NCBI RefSeq assembly: GCF_000230715.2
Contig: NC_019792.1
Span: 2,976,001 to 3,040,000 of the forward strand
Source: Natronobacterium gregoryi SP2
GTDB taxonomy: Archaea; Halobacteriota; Halobacteria; Halobacteriales; Natrialbaceae
Direction of reading: 5' to 3'
Length of the DNA: 64,000 nt
This document shows positions 2,893 through 62,940 of the stretch, in pieces. Numbering within the stretch: the first letter of the stretch is position 1; the number at the start of each line of letters is the position of its first letter. The position numbers were made by a program, and so were the translations under genes. A model generated the notes under the pieces. It did no database searches. It was not told the origin of the DNA and saw only the letters and a list, made by a program, of their open reading frames with translations.

Positions 2893-3291
2893 ATGGACGA
2901 CTCGATGGCTGAACAGCTCCAACAAGAGATGACGTGTGATGGGCTGCTGGAGTGTATCCACGGCCTCAAACGACTCGACAGGGAGTGTTTCCACGCAGTG
3001 GTCGAGAGTGAGGAGCCGTCGACGATCGACGAGGTCGCCGAACGCGTCGACCGCGAACGGTCGACGGTCTACCGCTCGATCCAGCGACTCCTCCAACGTG
3101 GCGTCGTCCAGAAGACACAGGTCAACTACGAGGAAGGTGGCTACTACCACGTCTACTACCCGACCGATCCCTCGCGGATCACGAGCGACATGCGACGCCG
3201 GCTCAACGACTGGTACGCGAAGATGAGCCACCTCATCCGGGAGTTCGAGGACGAACACGGGGACACGACCGAAACGGTGGAGCGACGATGA
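2893..3291 (+). CDS. TrmB-like winged-helix regulator (paralog of the gene at 100)
   Basis: 132 residues, nearly colinear with the regulator at 100-504 (same MAEQLQQ start region, same GLLECIHGLK, the HTH at about 38-73, same YYHVYYPTDP). I chose the ATG at 2893 because it aligns with the paralog and follows a promoter with leaderless spacing. The last codons overlap the start of the M20 peptidase (ATGA), so the two are translationally coupled and the peptidase is probably regulated by this protein or with it. Confidence 0.85.
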   Translation: MDDSMAEQLQQEMTCDGLLECIHGLKRLDRECFHAVVESEEPSTIDEVAERVDRERSTVYRSIQRLLQRGVVQKTQVNYEEGGYYHVYYPTDPSRITSDMRRRLNDWYAKMSHLIREFEDEHGDTTETVERR

Positions 3292-4529: not shown

Positions 4530-4554
4530 TACGGTTTATCTCAAACGGCGTGCT

Positions 4555-4607
4555 GTAGCTAGTTACCGCCGATCGCCGACCTCATTCCGTCGATCGGCGG
4601 TAATTAA
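4555..4607. repeat. Inverted repeat R2, copy 1
   Basis: TTACCGCCGATCG (4563-4575) and CGATCGGCGGTAA (4591-4603) are a perfect 13-bp inverted repeat with a 15-base spacer. A second copy lies at 21613-21667. The element sits directly after the M20 peptidase and could act as a terminator or be a mobile palindrome remnant. Confidence 0.6.
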
Positions 4608-5860: not shown

Positions 5861-5885
5861 CTCTCGTACTGTCTCACCTGTCGAC

Positions 5886-7054: not shown

Positions 7055-7164
7055 CTAGTACCGTCCCAACCGTGGATCGACTAGTTGAGAGTTGGTCAAA
7101 ACCGATCACGATTCTCGATCAGAAGTACAGCGCACTAGCCAGAGTAGACTTGGCCCGCCACTAG
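7055..7164. repeat. CTAG-ended MITE-like repeat M1, copy 1
   Basis: A 110-bp element running from CTAGTACCGTCCCAA to TTGGCCCGCCACTAG. Near-identical copies lie at 56669-56778 and, reversed, at 58289-58400. It has no coding capacity and is found only between genes. The related 88-bp form M2 occurs at 46683 and 56775. Confidence 0.7.
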
Positions 7165-7184
7165 TGCTTTGACAAGCCTGAACG

Positions 7185-7224
7185 GATGAGTGAAACCGAA
7201 TGCGGTCGTCTGGTTTCACTCATC
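7185..7224. terminator. Perfect 13-bp inverted repeat downstream of the FNT gene
   Basis: GATGAGTGAAACC and GGTTTCACTCATC form a perfect 13-bp stem with a 14-base loop. It may be a transcription terminator or the ends of a lost mobile element; the sequence alone does not decide. Confidence 0.4.
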
Positions 7225-7515
7225 AGTCGACGATTGAGACGGTGCTAGCACACACCGACGGACGACCTCTACCACAGCAGCGTGACGCCGACGGCCAGAC
7301 TCGATGACAGTTCCCCAGTACGTAACCTACTTCCACGAGTAGCGAAAACCCGCTACTCAACGTGGCATTCTTCGCATTGCATCATCAGGGTCGGTCGGTA
7401 GGCCACTGTTACGACCCATGAGTAGCGGGTGTGGGTCGACAGTGACGACGAAAAGACCTCTTACTCGGACCGACAGTCACCGGTTGTTTTGATCGACTTC
7501 GTAGACAACGTATTT
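7225..7515. other. Intergenic stretch before the NSS symporter
   Basis: About 290 bases with no convincing gene. A small hairpin, GAGTAGCG (7337-7344) and CGCTACTC (7351-7358), is present, and GAGTAGCGGGT recurs at about 7421, so the arm is found three times. This may be a regulatory site for the symporter gene. Confidence 0.35.
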
Positions 7516-8884: not shown

Positions 8885-8956
8885 CGCTCGTACGGTTTCC
8901 TGTCTGTCAGTTTCTGGCCACCTGCGACCAAGTGGTTGCACCGGCAAATCGATACA
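8885..8956. repeat. Palindromic repeat R1, copy 2, left part (split)
   Basis: TACGGTTTCCTGTCTGTCAG and the following TGCGACC..GGTTGCACCGG match the first two-thirds of R1. The match breaks at 8956, where a mobile element begins, and resumes at 10233 (CGATACAGCA, like CGGGACAGCA in intact copies). The repeat therefore records the pre-insertion site. Confidence 0.55.
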
Positions 8957-9081
8957 AGGGTGTCATAGAACGGTCCCCACACCCGATTCGTCACTACTCT
9001 CCGCCAGTCAGTATAGGTGTAGCACGAGAGATCGAAATGTACTCGGAACCTGTCAGAACTGGCGTGCTGAATACAGGGCGC
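8957..9081. repeat. 126-bp element left-end block, copy 1
   Basis: This block is repeated at 21669-21794 with a single base difference. Copy 1 (8956-9081) starts with the GGGTGTCATAGAAC end and finishes with CGTGCTGAATACAGGGC and two further bases. After it the two loci diverge completely. Confidence 0.8.
9063..9079. repeat. Inner inverted repeat, left arm
   Basis: CGTGCTGAATACAGGGC pairs with GCTCTGTATTCAGCACG at 10093-10109, with one mismatch in 17. No target duplication is visible immediately outside this pair. Confidence 0.7.
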
Positions 9082-9156
9082 GAATGTGGCACGGACTGAG
9101 GAGCTATCAACATGGAAGTCGAACGCTCATCAGTAGTTGCTTGATTTGATAAGTGC

Positions 9157-9169
9157 AAAACTATATTGG
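9157..9169 (+). promoter_or_regulatory. TATA box for the element-borne membrane proteins
   Basis: AAAACTATATTGG lies 27-39 bases before the ATG at 9196, the spacing of a leaderless haloarchaeal promoter. The cargo thus brings its own promoter. Confidence 0.5.
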
Positions 9170-9195
9170 TTTGGCATAAAACAATTCTGTCATAC

Positions 9196-9555
9196 ATGAG
9201 TGAACAGGAAATCGATCAAACCGAACAGCTCCAGCGGGTAGGAATTGGACTGGTACTGGGTGGGATCGTCTTCGGTGGCCTGTCGTTCGGTGTCGATGCA
9301 TTGGTGGGCGGTATCGTACTGCTGGTCGCTGGCGTAGCCGTCTGGTGGAGAGAGTATCGACGGGAACTGACCATCGGCATTGGTCTTGGAATCGGCGTGG
9401 CCGGAGTGGTAGTCCTAATCGAGACAGGAGCTGATACCGGTTTCAGCAATAACTTCTTGGCTGCAGCGCTTGTCGTGGGCGGCGTCGTAGATTACCTGCT
9501 CGCGCCCGCCTACGGCAGATTACAAGATGCAGGCGAACGAACTGTTGGAAGGTAA
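9196..9555 (+). CDS. Small membrane protein, element cargo 1
   Basis: 119 residues with four predicted membrane helices (about 17-33, 36-52, 65-80, 90-108) and an Arg-rich loop (WWREYRREL). No family recognised. I chose the ATG at 9196 (MSEQEIDQTEQ) because it sits about 30 bases after a TATA-like box. It lies inside the transposase-less element and is followed four bases later by a second membrane-protein gene, so the two form an operon. Confidence 0.65.
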   Translation: MSEQEIDQTEQLQRVGIGLVLGGIVFGGLSFGVDALVGGIVLLVAGVAVWWREYRRELTIGIGLGIGVAGVVVLIETGADTGFSNNFLAAALVVGGVVDYLLAPAYGRLQDAGERTVGR

Positions 9556-9559
9556 CCGT

Positions 9560-9943
9560 ATGAAAATATCTACATCTGGTGAGACGAGCGAGCGTTCACC
9601 GGCGGAAACAGCTTGGTTCGCACTCTTGGGCATCGCGTTCGTGCTCGCCGGTTTGGGATTGTTCTACGGACTTGCAGTCGACTCAATGCAGATGATCAGC
9701 GTTGCACTGATCACTATCTTCGTACTGTTTGCTGTATCGATGGGAATCCTCATCCGGAGCGAGCCGATCCGTTCCAGAGAGAACGCCGTAATTGCGATCT
9801 GCGTGTTTGTTGCGATGGCACTCTACCTTGGATTGAGTGTATTCACTGCTCTTCCGTTCGCCGTGCTTGTTGGCGTCCTCTTCGTCGTTGGTGTAATCGT
9901 CCCGGGATTAGTCCTTCAGTATGGAGTGACGAACGCCGAGTAA
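9560..9943 (+). CDS. Small membrane protein, element cargo 2
   Basis: 127 residues with four predicted membrane helices (about 20-40, 47-66, 78-95, 97-118) after a polar N terminus (MKISTSGETSERS). No family recognised. The ATG at 9560 follows a GGAAGG ribosome-binding site and comes right after the stop of cargo 1; the upstream in-frame start at 9527 would overlap cargo 1. The two proteins probably act together in the membrane. Their role is unknown. Confidence 0.6.
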   Translation: MKISTSGETSERSPAETAWFALLGIAFVLAGLGLFYGLAVDSMQMISVALITIFVLFAVSMGILIRSEPIRSRENAVIAICVFVAMALYLGLSVFTALPFAVLVGVLFVVGVIVPGLVLQYGVTNAE

Positions 9944-10092
9944 GAGCACTGAATGTCTCAAAGACGCGACAAAAATCAAATAAATGATATTGTTGGTGGG
10001 TATTAGCACGTACGGTAATTTAGCAGCCAGTTCGTATGCCCAGTTTTCACCTAATCCTCATGGGAACAAACACCGCCGGCTGATGAATACAT

Positions 10093-10109
10093 GCTCTGTA
10101 TTCAGCACG
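10093..10109. repeat. Inner inverted repeat, right arm
   Basis: GCTCTGTATTCAGCACG is the partner of 9063-9079. The core GCTCTGTATTCAGC recurs at 22132-22145, after the cargo of the related element at 21669. Confidence 0.7.
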
Positions 10110-10260
10110 TTGCTAAGAACATCTATCGGAACTGGCAGAATCGCTGGCAGTTGATACCCACGCGAGACCGAACGGTTATTTGATACTATTCAGCGCGAGA
10201 ATGGCCCTTGTGAAGAGTTCTATGACAGTCTCCGATACAGCAATCGGTACACCCTCTGTG

Positions 10261-21486: not shown

Positions 21487-21612
21487 TGTCTGGTCGTGGA
21501 AAACAGCACCTCAGCGTCCGATACCCGATATATCGTCGTCAGTATCTCGATTCCAGCGACAAGTGAGGCTGTGGCACACGGCTCGTAACTGACCTCTCAT
21601 ATGGTCTGGGGT

Positions 21613-21667
21613 AGTCAATTACCACCGATCCCCGATTCCTGTCTGGCGATCGGCGGTAACTAGTTAC
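21613..21667. repeat. Inverted repeat R2, copy 2
   Basis: TTACCACCGATC (21619-21630) and GATCGGCGGTAA (21648-21659) form a 12-bp inverted repeat with one mismatch. It resembles the repeat at 4555-4607, and the right arm continues as CTAGTTAC. The left end of a mobile element begins three bases after it. Confidence 0.6.
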
Positions 21668-21668
21668 A

Positions 21669-21794
21669 AAGGGTGTCATAGAACGGTCCCCACACCCGAT
21701 TCGTCACTACTCTCCGCCAGTCAGTATAGGTGTAGCACGAGAGGTCGAAATGTACTCGGAACCTGTCAGAACTGGCGTGCTGAATACAGGGCGC
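21669..21794. mobile_element. 126-bp element left-end block, copy 2, with different cargo
   Basis: This stretch is identical to 8956-9081 except for one base (AGAGGTCG for AGAGATCG). It includes the AGGGTGTCATAGAAC end and the inner repeat CGTGCTGAATACAGGGC (21776-21792). The sequence after it is unrelated to the first copy and encodes a small, probably frameshifted gene. GCTCTGTATTCAGC (22132-22145) closes the cargo. No outer right end (GTTCTATGACA..) was found, so the element is truncated or its right side was lost. Confidence 0.65.
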
Positions 21795-21823
21795 ATATGT
21801 TTATCTCTGGAGAATTCGAGGGG

Positions 21824-22104
21824 ATGGAGAACAGTTGTACAGACAAGCGAGTCAGAGTGTATCTCAATATGGAGCCTTCTGTCGCAAATTTAGTGAGACT
21901 TGTCCGGACGGAAAGGCTCGTGACTTCGAGCGAGCGCTATTCATGTTCGGAGGGTTCATCATGAATCTGCCGCCGAAAGACGCCCCAACACCAATAGAAA
22001 GAATCGATGAGACACTAGAGGCTCAAGAGAAATCGGTCACCAATATGCACGACGAGTATGGGTACGCGATGGTCAACATCAGCGAGATACAAGAGCCTGA
22101 GTGA
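21824..22104 (+). pseudogene. Small element-borne gene, probably frameshifted
   Basis: From the ATG at 21824 the frame reads MENSCTDKRVRVYLNMEPSV and ends after 46 residues. The overlapping frame (formal start 21835) continues with haloarchaeal-looking sequence (TCPDGKARDFERALFMFGG, then IERIDETLEAQEKS) to 22104. Joining the two near 21900 gives an ~92-residue protein whose N terminus looks like a beta strand of a ribbon-helix-helix or small regulator. A TTTATC box lies about 24 bases before the ATG. Family unknown. Confidence 0.45.
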
Positions 22105-22131
22105 AAGTGCAAACTAAAGCGCTGAGCTTAT

Positions 22132-22145
22132 GCTCTGTATTCAGC
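22132..22145. repeat. Cargo-closing repeat of the second element
   Basis: GCTCTGTATTCAGC is the reverse complement of the GCTGAATACAG core at 21779-21789 and equals the core of the right arm at 10093. Confidence 0.6.
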
Positions 22146-43995: not shown

Positions 43996-46686
43996 ATGGA
44001 CCCGGCGCTTGGCCCTCCCGAAGCGATGGCTGAGAAACGCGACGAGCTGACGCCCATGATGGCTCAGTACCACGACCTCTGTGACCGATACGACGACGCG
44101 CTCGTTCTCTTCCAGGTCGGCGACTTCTACGAGACCTTCTGCGGTGCGGCCGAACGCACCGCGCGACTGCTCGAGGTGACGCTGACCAGCCGCGAGGATT
44201 CGACCGGCGAGTACCCGATGACTGGTATTCCGATCGACAACGCCGAGTCCTACATCGAGGAACTGCTCGAGGCGGGCTACCGGGTCGCGGTCGCCGACCA
44301 GGTCGAGGAGCCCGGCGAGTCGTCGGGCGTCGTCGACCGGGCTGTGACGCGGGTCATCACGCCGGGGACGCTCACCGAGGACGAACTGCTTGCCGGCGAC
44401 GACAACAACTTCGTCGCGGCGGTCGCTTGCAGCGGCGAGGAGGTCGCGCTCGCCTTACTCGATGTCTCGACCGGCGACTTCCTCGCGACGAGTTCGACCT
44501 CGAGCAAGGCCATCGCCGACGAGGTGAGCCGGTTCGACCCTGCAGAGGCAGTCGTCGGCCCCGGCGCACCGACGGGCGTTTTCCCCGACGACTGCATGGA
44601 GACGCCGTTCGACGAGGCCGTCTTCGAGCGCGAGCGAGCGGTTGAGACGGTCTCGGCGTACTTCCGGAATCCCGATGCGTTGCTCGCGACCGACGCCGAA
44701 ATTCGGGCCTGTGGGGCCTTGCTCGAGTACGCCGAGTACGCTCGCGGCAGCGAGAGCGAGGCCGAACTCGAGGCCGACGACGAGAGCGCCCGCCTCGAGT
44801 ACATCACCCACCTCACGCGGTACGATCCACGGGAGTACCTGCTGCTGGACGCCGTCGCCCTCCGGAGTCTCGAACTGTTCGAACCGCGTGCCGTCCACGG
44901 CCGGGACGAAGCGACGCTCGTCGGGGTTCTGGACGAGACCTCGAGCGCGCTGGGCGGTCGAAAACTGCGAGACTGGATTCGCCGACCGCTGCTCGAGCCT
45001 GCCCGGATCGAAGCGCGACTCGACGCGGTCGAAGAACTCCAGCGGTCGGTTCGGGCCCGCGAAAAATTGCAGGACCTCTTGTGGGACGTGTACGACCTCG
45101 AGCGACTGATCGGTCGGATCTCCCGGGAGCGGGCAAATGCCAGGGATCTGTGCTCGCTTCGGGCGACGCTTGCCGTCGTGCCGGACGTGCGGGCTCACCT
45201 CGCGGGCAGCGAGTGCGATCGACTCCAGCAACTCCACGCCGATCTCGATCCGCTCGCGGACATCCGCGAGTTGATCGAGGATTCGATCGTCGAGGACCCG
45301 CCGATCGAGATCACCGAGGGCGGGATCGTCGCCGAGGGGTACGACGAGAATCTGGACGCCCTCCGGCAGACAGCCCGCGATGGGAAACAGTGGATCGACG
45401 ACTTAGAGGAACGGGAACGCGAGCGCACCGGTATCGACTCCCTGAAGGTCGGCTACAACTCGGTGCATGGCTACTACATCGAAGTGACCAATCCGAACCT
45501 CGACTCGGTGCCCGACGACTATCAGCGCCGCCAGACGTTGAAAAACTCCGAGCGGTTCGCCACGCCGGCACTCAAAGAGCGCGAGGACGAGATCGTCGGT
45601 GCCGAAGAGCGCGCGGACGAACTCGAGTACGAACTGTTCCGCGAGGTCCGCAAGACGGTCGCCAACGAGGTCGAACGCGTTCAGGCCCTTGCCGATGCGC
45701 TCGCAACCGTCGATGCGCTCGTCTCGCTTGCCACCGTCGCCGCTCAGTACGACTACTGTCGGCCGGAGTTACTCGAGCGCGGCGACGACCTCGAGGTCGA
45801 GATCGAAGGTGGTCGCCACCCGGTCGTCGAGCGGACTCAGGAGTCGTTCGTTCCCAACGACGCTCGGTTCGCGGGCGACAGACGGCTGGCAGTGATTACA
45901 GGCCCCAACATGTCGGGAAAGTCGACCTACATGCGACAGGTGGCCCAGATCGTCCTGCTGGCACAGGTCGGCAGTTTCGTGCCGGCGAGGTCGGCACGGC
46001 TGACGCCCGTCGATCGCATCTTCACCCGAGTCGGCGCGAGCGACGACATCGCCGGCGGCCGGTCGACGTTCATGGTCGAGATGGACGAACTCGCGACCAT
46101 TCTGCGGGAGGCCGACGACCGCTCGCTGGTCCTGTTAGACGAGGTCGGTCGTGGTACTTCGACCGCGGACGGACTCGCCATCGCCCAGGCGATGACCGAA
46201 CACCTCCACGACGAGGTCGGCGCGACGACGCTGTTTGCGACCCACCACCACCCTCTGACCGAGGTCGCCGAGGACCTCGAGGACGCGTTCACGCTCCACT
46301 TCGAGGTCGACCAGGAAGACGGCGAAGTAGTCTTCCACCACGAGGTCGCACCCGGCGCGGCGACGGGATCATACGGCGTCGAGGTCGCGACGGCCGCGGG
46401 CGTTCCCGAACCGGTAGTCGCCCGCTCGCGGGAACTGGTAGCCGAAACGGCCGACGAACGACCGGACGACTCCGACTCACCAGCGGAGGCGACGCCGAAG
46501 CCCACGACTTCGGCAACCGCAGACGGTGGGGAACAAACTGCGCCTCGACAGTCCACCTCGGACGCACCGGGGCTTTCGTCCGACGTCGCGGCCGAACTCC
46601 AAGCACTCGAGGTCGCCCACATGACACCGGTCGAGGCACTCGCCGAACTCGACCGGTTGAAGCGACTGCTCGAGGACCGGCGTTAG
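43996..46686 (+). CDS. mutS: DNA mismatch repair ATPase MutS
   Basis: 896 residues from the ATG at 43996 ([11 protein letters not shown]). Mismatch-binding domain I has the [10 protein letters not shown] loop (Phe and Glu contacts). The connector, lever and clamp follow, and the C-terminal ABC ATPase has Walker [16 protein letters not shown] and the [18 protein letters not shown] signature region. A variable acidic/Ser-rich linker and an HhH-like tail end the protein. A start at 43945 is also possible. The stop TAG is part of a CTAG-ended repeat. Confidence 0.95.
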
Positions 46687-46770
46687 TGGCGGGCCAAGCC
46701 TGCACTGCGGGGCCGAATCTGGCGGTGTGGCTCGATTCGGCCCGTCAGTCGACGGTTGGGACGGTACTAG
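46683..46770. repeat. CTAG-ended MITE-like repeat M2, copy 1
   Basis: An 88-bp element from TTAGTGGCGGGCCAAGCC to GTTGGGACGGTACTAG; a copy with the same length lies at 56775-56862. The mutS stop codon is within the left end. Confidence 0.65.
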
Positions 46771-56668: not shown

Positions 56669-56778
56669 CTAGTACCATCCCAATCGTGGACCGACTAGTT
56701 GAGAGTTGGCCCAAACCAATCACGATTCTCGATCAGGAGTAAAGCGCACTAGTCAGAGTAGACTTGGGACGCTACTAG
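56669..56778. repeat. CTAG-ended MITE-like repeat M1, copy 2
   Basis: A 110-bp element from CTAGTACCATCCCAA (56669-56683) to TTGGGACGCTACTAG (56764-56778); the two ends are inverted repeats at 13 of 15 positions. It begins 20 bases after the GT4 stop and shares its last CTAG with an M2 repeat. Confidence 0.75.
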
Positions 56779-56862
56779 TGGCGGGCCAAGCCTACACTGC
56801 GGGGTCGAATCTGGCGGCGTCGCTCGATTCGACCTGTCAGTCGACGCTTGGCGGAGTACTAG
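56775..56862. repeat. CTAG-ended MITE-like repeat M2, copy 2
   Basis: An 88-bp element from CTAGTGGCGGGCCAAGCC to GCTTGGCGGAGTACTAG. It abuts M1 copy 2, and its right end supplies the stop codon of the small membrane protein gene at 56859. Confidence 0.7.
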
Positions 56863-58554: not shown

Positions 58555-58836
58555 ATGGAATACGACCTCGACTCGGGAGCACACTCGAAGTTTTCCCTGC
58601 ACTATCACCTGGTACTCACCACGAAGTATCGGCGCGGAGTGCTAACCGAGGAGCGAACCCAATTCATTCGCGAGGTTATCAGCGGGTTCACGGACAACTA
58701 CGGTGTCAAATTGACGAACCTCGACGGCGAGGACGACCACGTACACATCCTCTTCCGAGCGAAACCAACCACAGACCTCGTGAAGTTCATCAACACAGTC
58801 AAGGGCGCGACCGCCCGCCGTATTCGCAACGAATAG
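58555..58836 (+). pseudogene. tnpA: IS200/IS605 tnpA, 5' part (split by a transposon)
   Basis: 93 codons encode the start of a Y1 HUH transposase: HYHLVLTTKYRR, then DDHVHILFRAKP with the HUH pair (His-Val-His). The frame is cut at AAC GAA TA, where a 4.1-kb transposon begins. The remaining 43 codons with the catalytic Tyr (LKQYVEDQ) are at 62941-63072. Joining the two across one copy of the duplication restores an uninterrupted protein of about 137 residues. Confidence 0.9.
58828..58835. repeat. Target-site duplication, left copy
   Basis: AACGAATA, identical to 62941-62948 on the other side of the transposon. Confidence 0.9.
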
Positions 58837-59001
58837 AGGGTGTCATAGAACGGTTAACATGGTGTAGATAGTAGCGGAAAAGACTCCTATCATCGGTTCG
58901 CAGTCCCCCAGCAAACCCGGGCTATCAGCTACCGTTTACCCAGCTACTACCGAAAGTATGTGGAGAGTTTTATGGAACCTTCTGCGAGCTATTGAACTGT
59001 T

Positions 59002-59994
59002 TCATACCCTGATGGTCGTGCTTCCCGGAGCATCCCCGCGCTCGTAGTTTGCGATTGCGACGGTCAGCCGGAGACATAGCGCGAGGAAGACTTGAGCTCT
59101 CGCGTGGACGCGGCCTCTGGCGCGCAGCATCCCGAGGCCGCAGTCCTTGCAGGCTCCGAGCGTTCGCTCGGCCTGTGACCGGCGGTTATACGTCTCTTCT
59201 AGAATTGATTGCTTGAGCTGGACACTCTCGCTGTGAATCTCAATGCGGTCTTCGACCCTGTACTCGATGTCGAGCGGGTCATCGGTATTGCGCGGGTTGT
59301 ACGGCGCGACAGGCACCACTCCTGCACTCAGCAAATAGTCGTGCCAGTCGAGGATATCGTAGGCACTGTCGCCGAGCATCCACATCGGCTGCTTGACGGC
59401 GAGCGCGTCACGGGTAACACGCATCGCCGTCTCTTGTGATGCCTGCTTGCTCTGGGTGAACTCCGCCGCAATTGGAATCTTTGCGCCGGTCGAGACTACC
59501 GTGCAGCCGTAGCCGTAGTAGTATTCCTCGGCAGTTGGGTCGTAGTTCTTCGAGGCGTCGGGATCAGTGGGCATAGCCCGGATGTCGGTCGAATCGATAC
59601 AAAATGTCGAGTCGAGCAGGCCCCGTCGAGCGGCCTGCTGGACGAGGTGCTCGAAAACTTCCTCGACGACGTGTTCGAGGTCGGTGAGAAAGCGGTCGAC
59701 CGCGTCTCGTGAGGGTGGTCGGTTGAAACCACATCCGAGCCAAACGAGGTCGTTGTTGAGTTCGCGTGCAACCGGGCGGATACCGTAGATGTCCTTATAG
59801 TAGCAGTGCAGAAAGCCTCGAAACAGCTCCGGCGGGTGGTGTTCCCGTGTTCGCCCTTCGGGAGTGGGGGCGAACACATCGAATTCGGTTAGGAACTCGA
59901 ATTGAAGATGCTCGAACAGCGCGAGCGTCTCCGTCTCTACAACATCGAAAAACGCCTCAATAGAGGGGTCCCCTCGTAGAATAGTGGAAGTCAT
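59002..59994 (-). CDS. DDE transposase (IS4/IS5-like)
   Basis: 330 residues with a DDE_Tnp_1 fold. The catalytic residues appear as FCIDSTDIRAM (first Asp), WMLGDSAYDILDW (second Asp) and YNRRSQAERTLG (Glu). The N-terminal region (about 55-115, ELFRGFLHCYYKDIYGI) resembles the DUF772-type DNA-binding part. It is the only transposase in the element and the likely motor of transposition, also for the element at 8957. The exact haloarchaeal IS group cannot be named without a search. Confidence 0.85.
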   Translation of the reverse strand: MTSTILRGDPSIEAFFDVVETETLALFEHLQFEFLTEFDVFAPTPEGRTREHHPPELFRGFLHCYYKDIYGIRPVARELNNDLVWLGCGFNRPPSRDAVDRFLTDLEHVVEEVFEHLVQQAARRGLLDSTFCIDSTDIRAMPTDPDASKNYDPTAEEYYYGYGCTVVSTGAKIPIAAEFTQSKQASQETAMRVTRDALAVKQPMWMLGDSAYDILDWHDYLLSAGVVPVAPYNPRNTDDPLDIEYRVEDRIEIHSESVQLKQSILEETYNRRSQAERTLGACKDCGLGMLRARGRVHARAQVFLALCLRLTVAIANYERGDAPGSTTIRV

Positions 59995-60071
59995 TCACCT
60001 CAGAACTCACTTCGGTCGTCAATTTTGATATTTCGCTGAGATATACACAGATGATTGAAAAAGGACATAAT

Positions 60072-60989
60072 TTACTGGACTTTGGTTTTGGAAGCTCGGT
60101 TGAGCAAGTAGACGGCAGTCCCTCCGAGAACGACGTTGAAACCGATGAGAACGGCGACAGCAGGAATTACCGTATTCCAGAGACCTGAGAAGGCTGTTAC
60201 ATTGAACACCGTCATCACATCTTGTCCGAGCATGAACGCTCGGACACCGTCAACACCGTAGGTGATGGGGTTGACTACTGCGAGAGACTGGATCCACCCT
60301 GGAAGGACCTCAAGCGGGACAAACGCACTAGAGATGAACAACAACGGGAACGTCAGAAGGGTGGCAATCATGGTCGTCGCCTCCTGATCATGTGTAATGA
60401 GCGCAATGATATTCGAGAACGCCATGAACGCACCACCGAATATTACTGCGACCGCGATGACGCCAACGAATCCCAGCAGTCCCGTCCGGTGATAGCTCCC
60501 AACCGACGCACCTGACTGTAGGTAGAGCATCACGTAACCAAGCAAGAAAATGATCGTAGTCTGAATAGCAATTCGAATCACCTCCGACAGAACCTTGCCG
60601 AGGAGCATTGCACCCCTGTCTATTGGCGAGGCGAGGAGTTTCTCGAACATTCCTGTGTCCATGTCGTTGACTAACCCAATACCGGAAACCGCTGCGGCAG
60701 CGAGTGCAGACTGAATCACGATAGCTGGGGTAAGGAATGTAATGTAGTTGATATTGTCACCAACTGTCTGGGCGAGCAGATCATCGACAATCGCGCCGAG
60801 GACTGCAGCCATCAACACAAAGAAGATGACTGGCTGGATCAGCGACGAGAACGTCACGAAAGGATTTCGGGATGTCTTGATTAGCCATCTTTTTAGACTG
60901 ATTCGCATATCTGACATGGAGCTATTTCCCGGGGCTTTCTGCGCGGTATTATCTCCCGAGATATGGCCCTCATCGGTGATGTCGCTCAT
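60072..60989 (-). CDS. ABC-2 type permease (DrrB-like), transposon cargo
   Basis: 305 residues with six membrane helices (about 45-65, 85-105, 130-155, 170-200, 205-230, 270-295). The ABC-2 signature region is GWIQSLAVVNPITYGVDGVR. It is the membrane half of an exporter for drugs or lipid-like molecules (DrrAB/NodJ type). The start overlaps the ATPase stop by four bases. Confidence 0.85.
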   Translation of the reverse strand: MSDITDEGHISGDNTAQKAPGNSSMSDMRISLKRWLIKTSRNPFVTFSSLIQPVIFFVLMAAVLGAIVDDLLAQTVGDNINYITFLTPAIVIQSALAAAAVSGIGLVNDMDTGMFEKLLASPIDRGAMLLGKVLSEVIRIAIQTTIIFLLGYVMLYLQSGASVGSYHRTGLLGFVGVIAVAVIFGGAFMAFSNIIALITHDQEATTMIATLLTFPLLFISSAFVPLEVLPGWIQSLAVVNPITYGVDGVRAFMLGQDVMTVFNVTAFSGLWNTVIPAVAVLIGFNVVLGGTAVYLLNRASKTKVQ

Positions 60990-62056
60990 TCGGCCACCCC
61001 CTGACCCGAGGCAAGAGCTCCTTGTTCGTTCGTCTCGTCTCCATTAGAGGCCTCCGGGTTCTTGCTAGTGAGCTTGAGGAACACATCATCTAGCGTGGGT
61101 GACCGGACATCGAATCCAGTAACGATAACGTTAGCCTCGTGAAGTGAGACGAAAAGTTCACTCGCGGCCTCCCGAGCATTTTCGGCTGTGATGGTGAACC
61201 CGTCGCTCGTCGTTTCGATACTCGGGGTTTCGAGCGCATCTGATTCCCGCACAACTTCTATTGCTCGTTCTCTCGCCTGTCTAGACGAGTCTTCCAGTGT
61301 TAGATCGAGAATGTCGCCACCGACAGCCGATTTGAGTGCTTCCGGAGTGTCAGTTGCGATGATTTCACCGTCCTGAATCACGGACAGACGGTCACAGAGC
61401 CGGTCCACTTCTTCGAGATACTGTGTTGTGAGAAACACCGTCGTTCCGTGCTCATTGAGTTGCTTAAAGTGATTCCAGAGGTGCATTCTAGCTTCGGGGT
61501 CGAGACCGGTCGTCGGCTCATCAAGGAACACCAGCGGAGGTCGATGCACGAGGACAGTGGCAGCGTCCAGGCGTTTTTTCATTCCACCAGAATAATTCTC
61601 TGCCCGCTTGTCGGCAACATCTGTGAGACCGACTAAATCGAGCAGTTCTTCAATACGTTCGCCTCGTTCGGATGGTGGAACACCATACACGTTGCAAGCA
61701 AACCGGAGGTTCTCACGCGCGGTGAGTTCCTCATCGACACTGGTCTCTTGAGCCATATAGCCGATAGATTCAGACACAGCTTGTGGCTCCGTTTTGACAT
61801 CATATCCGTTAATTGTCACTGAACCCCGATTTGGGTGGAGCAGTGTTACGAAGGTTTTGATAGTGGTCGTCTTTCCGGCACCGTTAGGTCCTAAGAAGCC
61901 AAAGAACTCCCCTTTCTCAACAGAGAGAGTGACATCACGAACGGCTTCGGTGCCATCTGGGTACGTAACATGTATCCCGTCGGCATTGATTGCGAGTTCC
62001 TCATTATTTGACTTGCACGAGCTATCGGTCTCCACTCGGGGTCGTTGTGGCACCAT
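60986..62056 (-). CDS. ABC transporter ATPase (DrrA-like), transposon cargo
   Basis: 356 residues. Walker A GPNGAGKTTT, Q-loop MAQETSVDEELT, signature YSGGMKKRLDAATVL, Walker B LVFLDEPTTGLDP and the switch His in LTTQYLEEVDRLC region are present. A C-terminal DUF4162-like extension (about 240-335) is typical of DrrA-type exporters. It forms one operon with the permease. Confidence 0.9.
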   Translation of the reverse strand: MVPQRPRVETDSSCKSNNEELAINADGIHVTYPDGTEAVRDVTLSVEKGEFFGFLGPNGAGKTTTIKTFVTLLHPNRGSVTINGYDVKTEPQAVSESIGYMAQETSVDEELTARENLRFACNVYGVPPSERGERIEELLDLVGLTDVADKRAENYSGGMKKRLDAATVLVHRPPLVFLDEPTTGLDPEARMHLWNHFKQLNEHGTTVFLTTQYLEEVDRLCDRLSVIQDGEIIATDTPEALKSAVGGDILDLTLEDSSRQARERAIEVVRESDALETPSIETTSDGFTITAENAREAASELFVSLHEANVIVTGFDVRSPTLDDVFLKLTSKNPEASNGDETNEQGALASGQGVAE

Positions 62057-62146
62057 AGTGGGATGTCAAACTAAGGGAGGTTGTCTGGCTAACCCTGTCT
62101 CTCATTTGTACGGCAGTTTATATGCCGTGTTGGAGAAACGGTAATT

Positions 62147-62833
62147 TCACTGGGGTAGCGGTGGCCATGTCGAGGCAACGGTTGTTTCGATGAGGTGGGT
62201 CTGTGCTCGGCGGAGGCGCTCGGAGAGTGACGAGGCAGTAATCCCGAGTTCGGCAGCGACCTCGTCAAGCGTTGCCGTTCGAGGGATGTCGAAGTGGCCC
62301 ATCTCGTAGGCGATTCGGAGTGCCTCGCGCTGGTGGTCAGTGAGTCCGTCTCCCGCTTCTTCAGCCTCTCCATCGTAAGTGAGTCGTCGCAAGGTAAATT
62401 CGCCGTTACGCTGCCAGAACGTACGAAATTCGTCCAACACTGCTCTATCTCTGAACCACCCGCTTTGTATCCAGCCGGTCGGCGTGACGCGGATTCGTTC
62501 AATAATGGAGTCGGTGGTAGCGAGTGCACGGAGCTCTGAGAGGTCCTCGATCTGCTCACCGAGTTGTGCTTCTATCCCCAGAGCTGGCAAAACCTGATAT
62601 TGACACGTTTCACCTGCCTGTCCGACCAGAGTGTGCTCCGCCACGAACGATGACGACTCGAAGGCTTGCTCAATAGACGCGGGTGTTTCATGCGTCGCGT
62701 GAACGATAAACGGTGGATGATTGCCATGATTCGGCTGAAGTTCGATATCCAGCGTTGCTTCCGGAACATCTCCTGCAATCGCCACGAGCGGGAGATGTTC
62801 ACAAGTGATTTCGTATTCAGCGATGAGGCCCAT
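62147..62833 (-). CDS. HTH_10 (Bat-type) regulator, transposon cargo
   Basis: 228 residues. The sensing part (about 1-165) includes TPTGWIQSGWFRD, and the C-terminal HTH_10 domain (about 170-220) has LTDHQREALRIAYEMGHFDI and then LDEVAAELGITASSLSERLR. I chose the ATG at 62833 (MGLIAEYEIT). It lies 90 bases upstream of the ABC exporter operon on the same strand and probably controls it, giving the transposon a self-regulated export module. Confidence 0.85.
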   Translation of the reverse strand: MGLIAEYEITCEHLPLVAIAGDVPEATLDIELQPNHGNHPPFIVHATHETPASIEQAFESSSFVAEHTLVGQAGETCQYQVLPALGIEAQLGEQIEDLSELRALATTDSIIERIRVTPTGWIQSGWFRDRAVLDEFRTFWQRNGEFTLRRLTYDGEAEEAGDGLTDHQREALRIAYEMGHFDIPRTATLDEVAAELGITASSLSERLRRAQTHLIETTVASTWPPLPQ

Positions 62834-62940
62834 ATCTCTCAACACTCACCACTACGGATATACAACTTGGAACGGTTGCCTGATAATCGTTACTCGCTCA
62901 ACTACTGGCGACGGTTTGCGAAGAGTTCTATGACACCCTC

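Follow-up and report, generated by a model that had tools for sequence, protein, structure and literature searches.

The segment from 8957 to 10232 in a 64,000-nucleotide stretch of the Natronobacterium gregoryi SP2 genome (the window, in what follows) is, to judge from its sequence and with a probability of about 0.87, a mobile insertion cassette (MIC), that is, a non-autonomous transposon with the tips of a resident haloarchaeal IS, on which a transposase is inferred to act in trans. Inside these tips lies a module, consisting of a core and two sequences named X and Y, that defines a wider haloarchaeal gene-cassette class, including cassettes with the tips of another IS and head-to-tail arrays; a route of gene acquisition or exchange has not been shown. 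The cassette family is large, carries many different cargo genes across related archaea and is apparently undescribed: a literature search, limited to open-licence papers, found no matching description of haloarchaeal cassettes or of archaeal MICs. Haloarchaea swap genes heavily and single-gene vehicles are poorly known; the cassettes provide a concrete vehicle with defined ends.

Borders of the cassette

The element and its ends are as follows:

8957 to 10232, forward strand: whole element of 1276 bp, read as a single mobile insertion cassette with tip-A ends, from its tips, a 7-bp duplication and a restored R1 palindrome
8950 to 8956 (left) and 10233 to 10239 (right), forward strand: the two copies of the target duplication CGATACA
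8957 to 9062, forward strand: left end (LE), the IS tip followed by about 90 bp conserved among other cassettes; matched by the LE model
10107 to 10232, reverse strand: right end (RE), about 125 bp conserved among other cassettes, including the IS tip; matched by the RE model

With up to one mismatch allowed, GTTCTATGACA occurs five times in the window (at 8961, 10217, 21674, 58841 and 62925) vs. 0.48 times expected, and all five occurrences are exact. Two of these sites bound the cassette and another two a 4.1-kb transposon; the fifth belongs to a decayed copy at 21670, as its left end. An earlier note on this DNA had matched the ends of the element to those of the 4.1-kb transposon and, indeed, the tips are the same in both, with GTTCTATGACA exact at each end. 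The left tip of the cassette, AGGGTGTCATAGAAC, is exact; the right tip, AGACTGTCATAGAAC, has two mismatches, and the cassette may therefore be inactive now. The register set by the IS copies gives the 7-bp CGATACA duplication, which makes 8957-10232 the best reading of its limits. The flank repeat first reported as TCGATACA/CCGATACA is this same duplication, with one mismatch in that version.

The insertion site and its counterparts in relatives

The cassette was also said to split a palindromic repeat of the R1 type, of which the two parts are:

8897 to 8956, forward strand: left part of the split R1 palindrome (limits approximate)
10233 to 10250, forward strand: right part of the split R1 palindrome (limits approximate)

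This claim holds, as R1 is restored in register once the flanks are joined with a single CGATACA. The joined sequence gives the best match to the R1 profile (33.0 bits), compared to 27.0 bits with two copies of CGATACA, 21.9 with none and 23.4 for the left flank alone. Among the 11 complete elements of this genome that were tested, three have R1 targets, namely the cassette and two of the nine intact IS copies described below, vs. 7 matches to R1 in 400 control 300-mers, all drawn from this single window. R1 repeats are thus insertion targets for IS as well as for cassettes, which provides indirect evidence of one transposition machinery.

The NSS symporter gene upstream and the gene downstream of the cassette adjoin elsewhere in the genus and the family, and both flanks match close together in three genomes (G082, G083 and G098). 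On reading the intervals between the same neighbour genes in G082 and G083, we found neither the element nor R1. The intact R1 that the earlier note had expected at the orthologous empty site is therefore missing from these two junctions, so that the cassette entered an R1 copy that these relatives are without. Neither of the two findings that would have refuted the note was made: other genomes do show these boundaries, and the two cargo genes are not conserved downstream of the symporter without the repeat ends, as the relatives lack them there.

A resident IS with the same tips

The genome contains nine intact IS copies of about 1.06 kb, with tips of the type GAGGGTGTCATAGAAC (tip A), whose transposase is 78% identical to the one at 59002 in the 4.1-kb transposon:

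58836 to 62940, reverse strand: 4.1-kb transposon with cassette-type tips and a transposase at 59002-59994; no core, X or Y found

The 59002 transposase matches DDE_Tnp_1 and, weakly, DUF772. We did not retain an assignment to IS1182, its nearest NCBIfam model, at 60.6 bits vs. a cut-off of 270. Seven of the nine IS copies show target duplications, of 6 to 11 bp. Such a variable length in the tip-A IS of this genome (L011, L014-L020 and L022) is unusual for one IS.

In the 4.1-kb transposon, an IS with passenger genes, the inverted ends measure 16 bp and the duplication is CAACGAATA. The transposon shares its tips and duplication range with the cassette; unlike the cassette, it has its own transposase and is missing the core, X and Y. 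Beside the transposase, its cargo (within 59002-62845) consists of a DrrAB-like ABC exporter and an HTH_10 regulator. It appears to split an IS200/IS605-type transposase gene (58555-58836 and 62941 onward; Y1_Tnp, 93 aa before the insertion).

The segment 8957-10232 has IS-family TIRs, an IS-like duplication (7 bp vs. 6-11 bp), passenger genes with no transposase, and a matching IS in the genome, as a MIC should; with 1276 bp and two genes, it does not meet the definition of a MITE as short and non-coding. A transposase supplied in trans would cut at the cassette tips and insert the cassette elsewhere, duplicating about 7 bp, and this copy would have landed in an R1 palindrome.

Cargo genes

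The two small membrane-protein genes attributed to the element are present as adjacent ORFs, 4 bp apart:

9196 to 9555, forward strand: cargo gene 1, encoding a hydrophobic protein of 119 aa for which no family exceeds its cut-off
9560 to 9943, forward strand: cargo gene 2, encoding a hydrophobic protein of 127 aa for which no family exceeds its cut-off

Inside 8957-10232, nothing homologous to the 59002 transposase was found. Compared to their Halostagnicola homologues, the cargo genes have a dN/dS of about 0.2 and are under purifying selection. The Halostagnicola gene pair adjoins an ABC transporter and has no cassette ends. Only one relative was found in a contig scan with cargo gene 2, and plasmids of Haloplanus, Halobacterium and Halorarius hold DNA similar to one or other of the two genes. 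The product might be a small membrane complex, perhaps linked to an ABC exporter; this is a weak inference, and the function is unknown. A defence role was considered and set aside, PADLOC giving no match.

A family of cassettes in the Natrialbaceae

Six left ends could be aligned with 83% mean column identity and five right ends with 84%, over 138-148 columns. LE and RE models (ends of about 130-140 bp) were used to search 125 Natrialbaceae genomes, and yielded 15 convergent LE-RE pairs within 10 kb, in 12 genomes, vs. two other arrangements, one of which is a single site matched by both end models. It should be noted that two of the 15 pairs, both in G072, have equal lengths and could be two copies of the same element. 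The cargo is mostly different from pair to pair, so that the search for the same ends with other cargo, proposed in the earlier note as a check, gave a positive answer. Paired elements carry a PAS histidine kinase (L181), membrane proteins and a cupin-like protein (L184), a cupin (L185), a Cys/Met PLP enzyme and a MOSC protein (L188), a LysE exporter (L189), ferritin-like and CNNM/CBS proteins (L190) and lipoprotein-like proteins (L089 and L091 in G082). Elements recognised by their tips contain EamA (L197), histidine kinases (L198), and a glycosyltransferase with a deacetylase (L199); a further one, with only one tip seen, contains a bPH_2 protein (L192). A 410-bp relative (L180 in G082) would fit a MITE better than 8957-10232 does.

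None of the 18 related elements tested contains a homologue of the 59002 transposase; in L091, L186 and L199 there are transposase genes or fragments of other kinds, apparently nested. A duplication score of at least 7 was obtained for 13 of 26 tip-A elements (IS and cassettes together) vs. 0.75% of mispaired flanks. The duplication is weak or absent in five of the paired tip-A elements listed (L180, L183, L186, L194 and L197). The tip-A IS is present in several cassette-bearing genomes, and its transposase was not found in some (G013 and G047). Taken together, the tips, the duplication, the R1 targets, the lack of a transposase and the relatives with other cargo support the original proposal of a non-autonomous cargo element; its movement in trans remains an inference.

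The window also contains a second cassette:

21670 to 22145, forward strand: decayed cassette with core, part of X, small ORFs and a Y-like sequence; right end missing

Its left end is 98% identical over 131 bp to that of the 8957 element. Elsewhere in the genome (2893644; L003, 1501-1567), an isolated right end of the cassette type, 94% identical over 67 bp, follows an R1-end-like TACGGTTTCCTGTAACTG stretch and is truncated near a further gene for an IS4-like transposase.

A core, X and Y in cassettes with tips of two IS groups

Inside the tips is the core, CGTGCTGAATACAG, followed by the 74-bp X on one side and by Y, an imperfect palindrome of about 27 bp with a short spacer, on the other. 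In the cassette at 8957 these are:

9063 to 9076, forward strand: left copy of the 14-bp core CGTGCTGAATACAG, which is inverted at the other side of the cargo
9063 to 9130, forward strand: X module, a 74-bp cassette sequence whose last bases are degenerate here
10079 to 10109, reverse strand: Y module, an imperfect palindrome that ends with the inverted core (10093-10106)

Core-X on one side and Y-core on the other bound the cargo, and we infer that the core is a site where cassettes get joined or exchanged. X was found in 101 of the 125 Natrialbaceae genomes; across the class it is present in 124 of 391, mostly within Natrialbaceae. A transposase-less cassette class is found in most genomes of this family, and its ends allow many cargo genes to be annotated, mobile accessory genes to be predicted and gene acquisition to be tested. 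Two possible functions of X were rejected. As a structured RNA, it has a consensus fold of only 3 pairs with no covariation, and the window has no Rfam match; as a cargo promoter, it would not be expected to vary in position, lying 5' of the cargo in some cassettes and 3' in others.

A second IS group has tips of the type GGCTCTGTTGAAATCC (tip B) and 8-bp duplications, and cassettes with tip B share the core and X with those bearing tip A. The core is absent from the complete IS copies examined in both groups; one core-like match at L201 is outside the IS. The transposases of the two groups gave no BLASTP alignment (E 0.35), and both match DDE_Tnp_1 and, weakly, DUF772. Since the Pfam domains are the same and the tip at L066 looks intermediate, common descent of tips A and B is possible, and we do not claim that an exchange of tips between IS groups has been shown. 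The inner module, its use by a second IS group and the arrays described below are beyond what the earlier note foresaw.

Head-to-tail arrays

The cassette at 8957-10232 is single; head-to-tail arrays are seen at related loci. In N. magadii, a single pair of degenerate tip-B ends encloses three X...Y units (L260), and its flanks, TTTTTGTT and ATTTTGTT, resemble a duplication in which one base differs. At L296, X alternates with Y along 9 kb; there are four 37-bp junctions, and the genes include TauE, TrmB, an M24 peptidase and an alpha/beta hydrolase. The selected loci gave 33 units, with a median length of 987 bp, and 15 junctions of 35-38 bp. These loci were picked for holding several X, so that the numbers are not a census; they also overlap, and one cassette can be counted twice. 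Neighbouring X less than 4 kb apart, among the 150 matches listed, have the same orientation in 7 of 7 pairs.

No integron integrase scored over the cut-off in 125 genomes; none of 14 control genomes passed either, and the sensitivity of this search is thus not shown. Nine of 10 junctions folded no better than shuffled sequences in the search for attC-like structures, the remaining one having a z of -2.7, and arm matching across junctions was 10.07 vs. 10.33 at random. Integron-like handling of the cassettes is not supported.

Possible origins of the module and arrays

A serious rival to any dedicated cassette system is a plain MIC lineage whose long ends recombine, an explanation to which we give close to even odds. 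Core, X and Y would be parts of long ancestral ends, the cargo would be swapped by ordinary homologous recombination, and the arrays would come from nested or neighbouring insertions. The long conserved ends do give the homology required, and the lack of an integrase over the cut-off, of attC-like folding and of arm matching is consistent with this explanation, as are the Pfam matches common to the transposases of both IS groups. However, the constant junctions of 35-38 bp and the same-direction arrays would be unexpected from random neighbouring insertions, and the failure of the two transposases to align also counts against it.

Tentatively, and as something possible rather than probable, we propose that haloarchaea have an integron-like system of their own, in which X/Y-bounded genes with a common 14-bp core would be joined into head-to-tail arrays, with spacers of about 36 bp, by an unidentified core recombinase, and singles or arrays would then be moved between replicons by borrowed IS tips. 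If it is true that the arrays form by site-specific recombination, the archaea would have an equivalent of the integron.

It is unlikely that core-X-genes-Y-core forms an independent transposon (TIR GTGCTGAATACAG) inserted in a tip-A MITE, the outer ends being incidental. The inversion of the core on the two sides of the cargo and the occurrence of X..Y units beside different tips and within arrays would fit such a nested element, but the spacing between tip and core is regular where the tips are of type A and short (about 36-43 bp) where they are of type B, the junction spacers keep to 35-38 bp, and no IS with core tips was found in the loci read. A single insertion of a nested unit, inherited since with the outer ends, is not excluded.

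We consider it very improbable that the units are those of a canonical integron or CALIN, that is, attC cassettes moved by an integron integrase. They resemble them in being mostly single-gene cassettes, in head-to-tail arrays with a conserved site at each junction. Against this are the absence of an integrase over the cut-off (though no positive control passed), the nine of 10 junction folds no better than shuffles, and the conservation of sequence at both cassette ends; we know of no attC cassettes with this property.

Finally, a fixed genomic gene pair amid IS debris, with no mobile unit at all, is scarcely credible despite the Halostagnicola pair adjoining an ABC transporter without cassette ends, given the duplication, the restored R1, the element-free junction in relatives, the same-ended elements elsewhere and the convergent LE-RE pairs.

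Comparison with known systems

MIC231 of Bacillus cereus, which is related to IS231, has IS-type ends and passenger genes but no transposase. The cassette resembles it in each of these respects and in the expected supply of transposase in trans; it differs in its archaeal host, its IS group, an inner core/X/Y module that is absent from the IS copies examined and common to two IS groups, and the arrays. MICs have been described in Bacillus, and a paper that names MIC231 states that they rely on a transposase (PMC6542083). The MITEs of Haloquadratum walsbyi are transposase-free, have only terminal bases in common with IS and are moved in trans; they are short and mostly non-coding, only the ISH2-type being said to hold a likely protein gene (PMC3119063). 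The cassettes are likewise transposase-free with IS terminal bases, but are 0.5-6 kb long with varied cargo.

The cassette arrays share with integrons and CALINs a head-to-tail order, mostly single genes per unit and constant junctions; in contrast to these, they have modules at both unit ends, IS tips around the array and no attC-like folding. CALINs have, by definition, no integrase nearby. Archaeal integrons have been reported in nine phyla, with no mention of halobacteria (PMC9668308). The pdif modules of Acinetobacter, genes flanked by Xer sites, are not known to carry IS tips. They resemble the cassettes in being gene modules bounded by short sites (PMC12907356).

Other repeats in the window

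Palindromic intergenic repeats of the R1 type also occur near 5882, 16386, 32307 and 40714. A second palindromic repeat, of the TAATTACCGCCGATCG type, is found at 1770-1804, 4539-4606 and 21595-21662, and the decayed cassette at 21670 sits at the edge of one of these copies. A third, of about 87 bp, has three copies (7162-7248, 46684-46770 and 56776-56862), and a related 106-bp repeat is present at 7057, 56671 and 58292. Lastly, a 300-bp direct repeat (100-399 and 2893-3192) is 82% identical between its copies, which are perhaps parts of paralogous genes.
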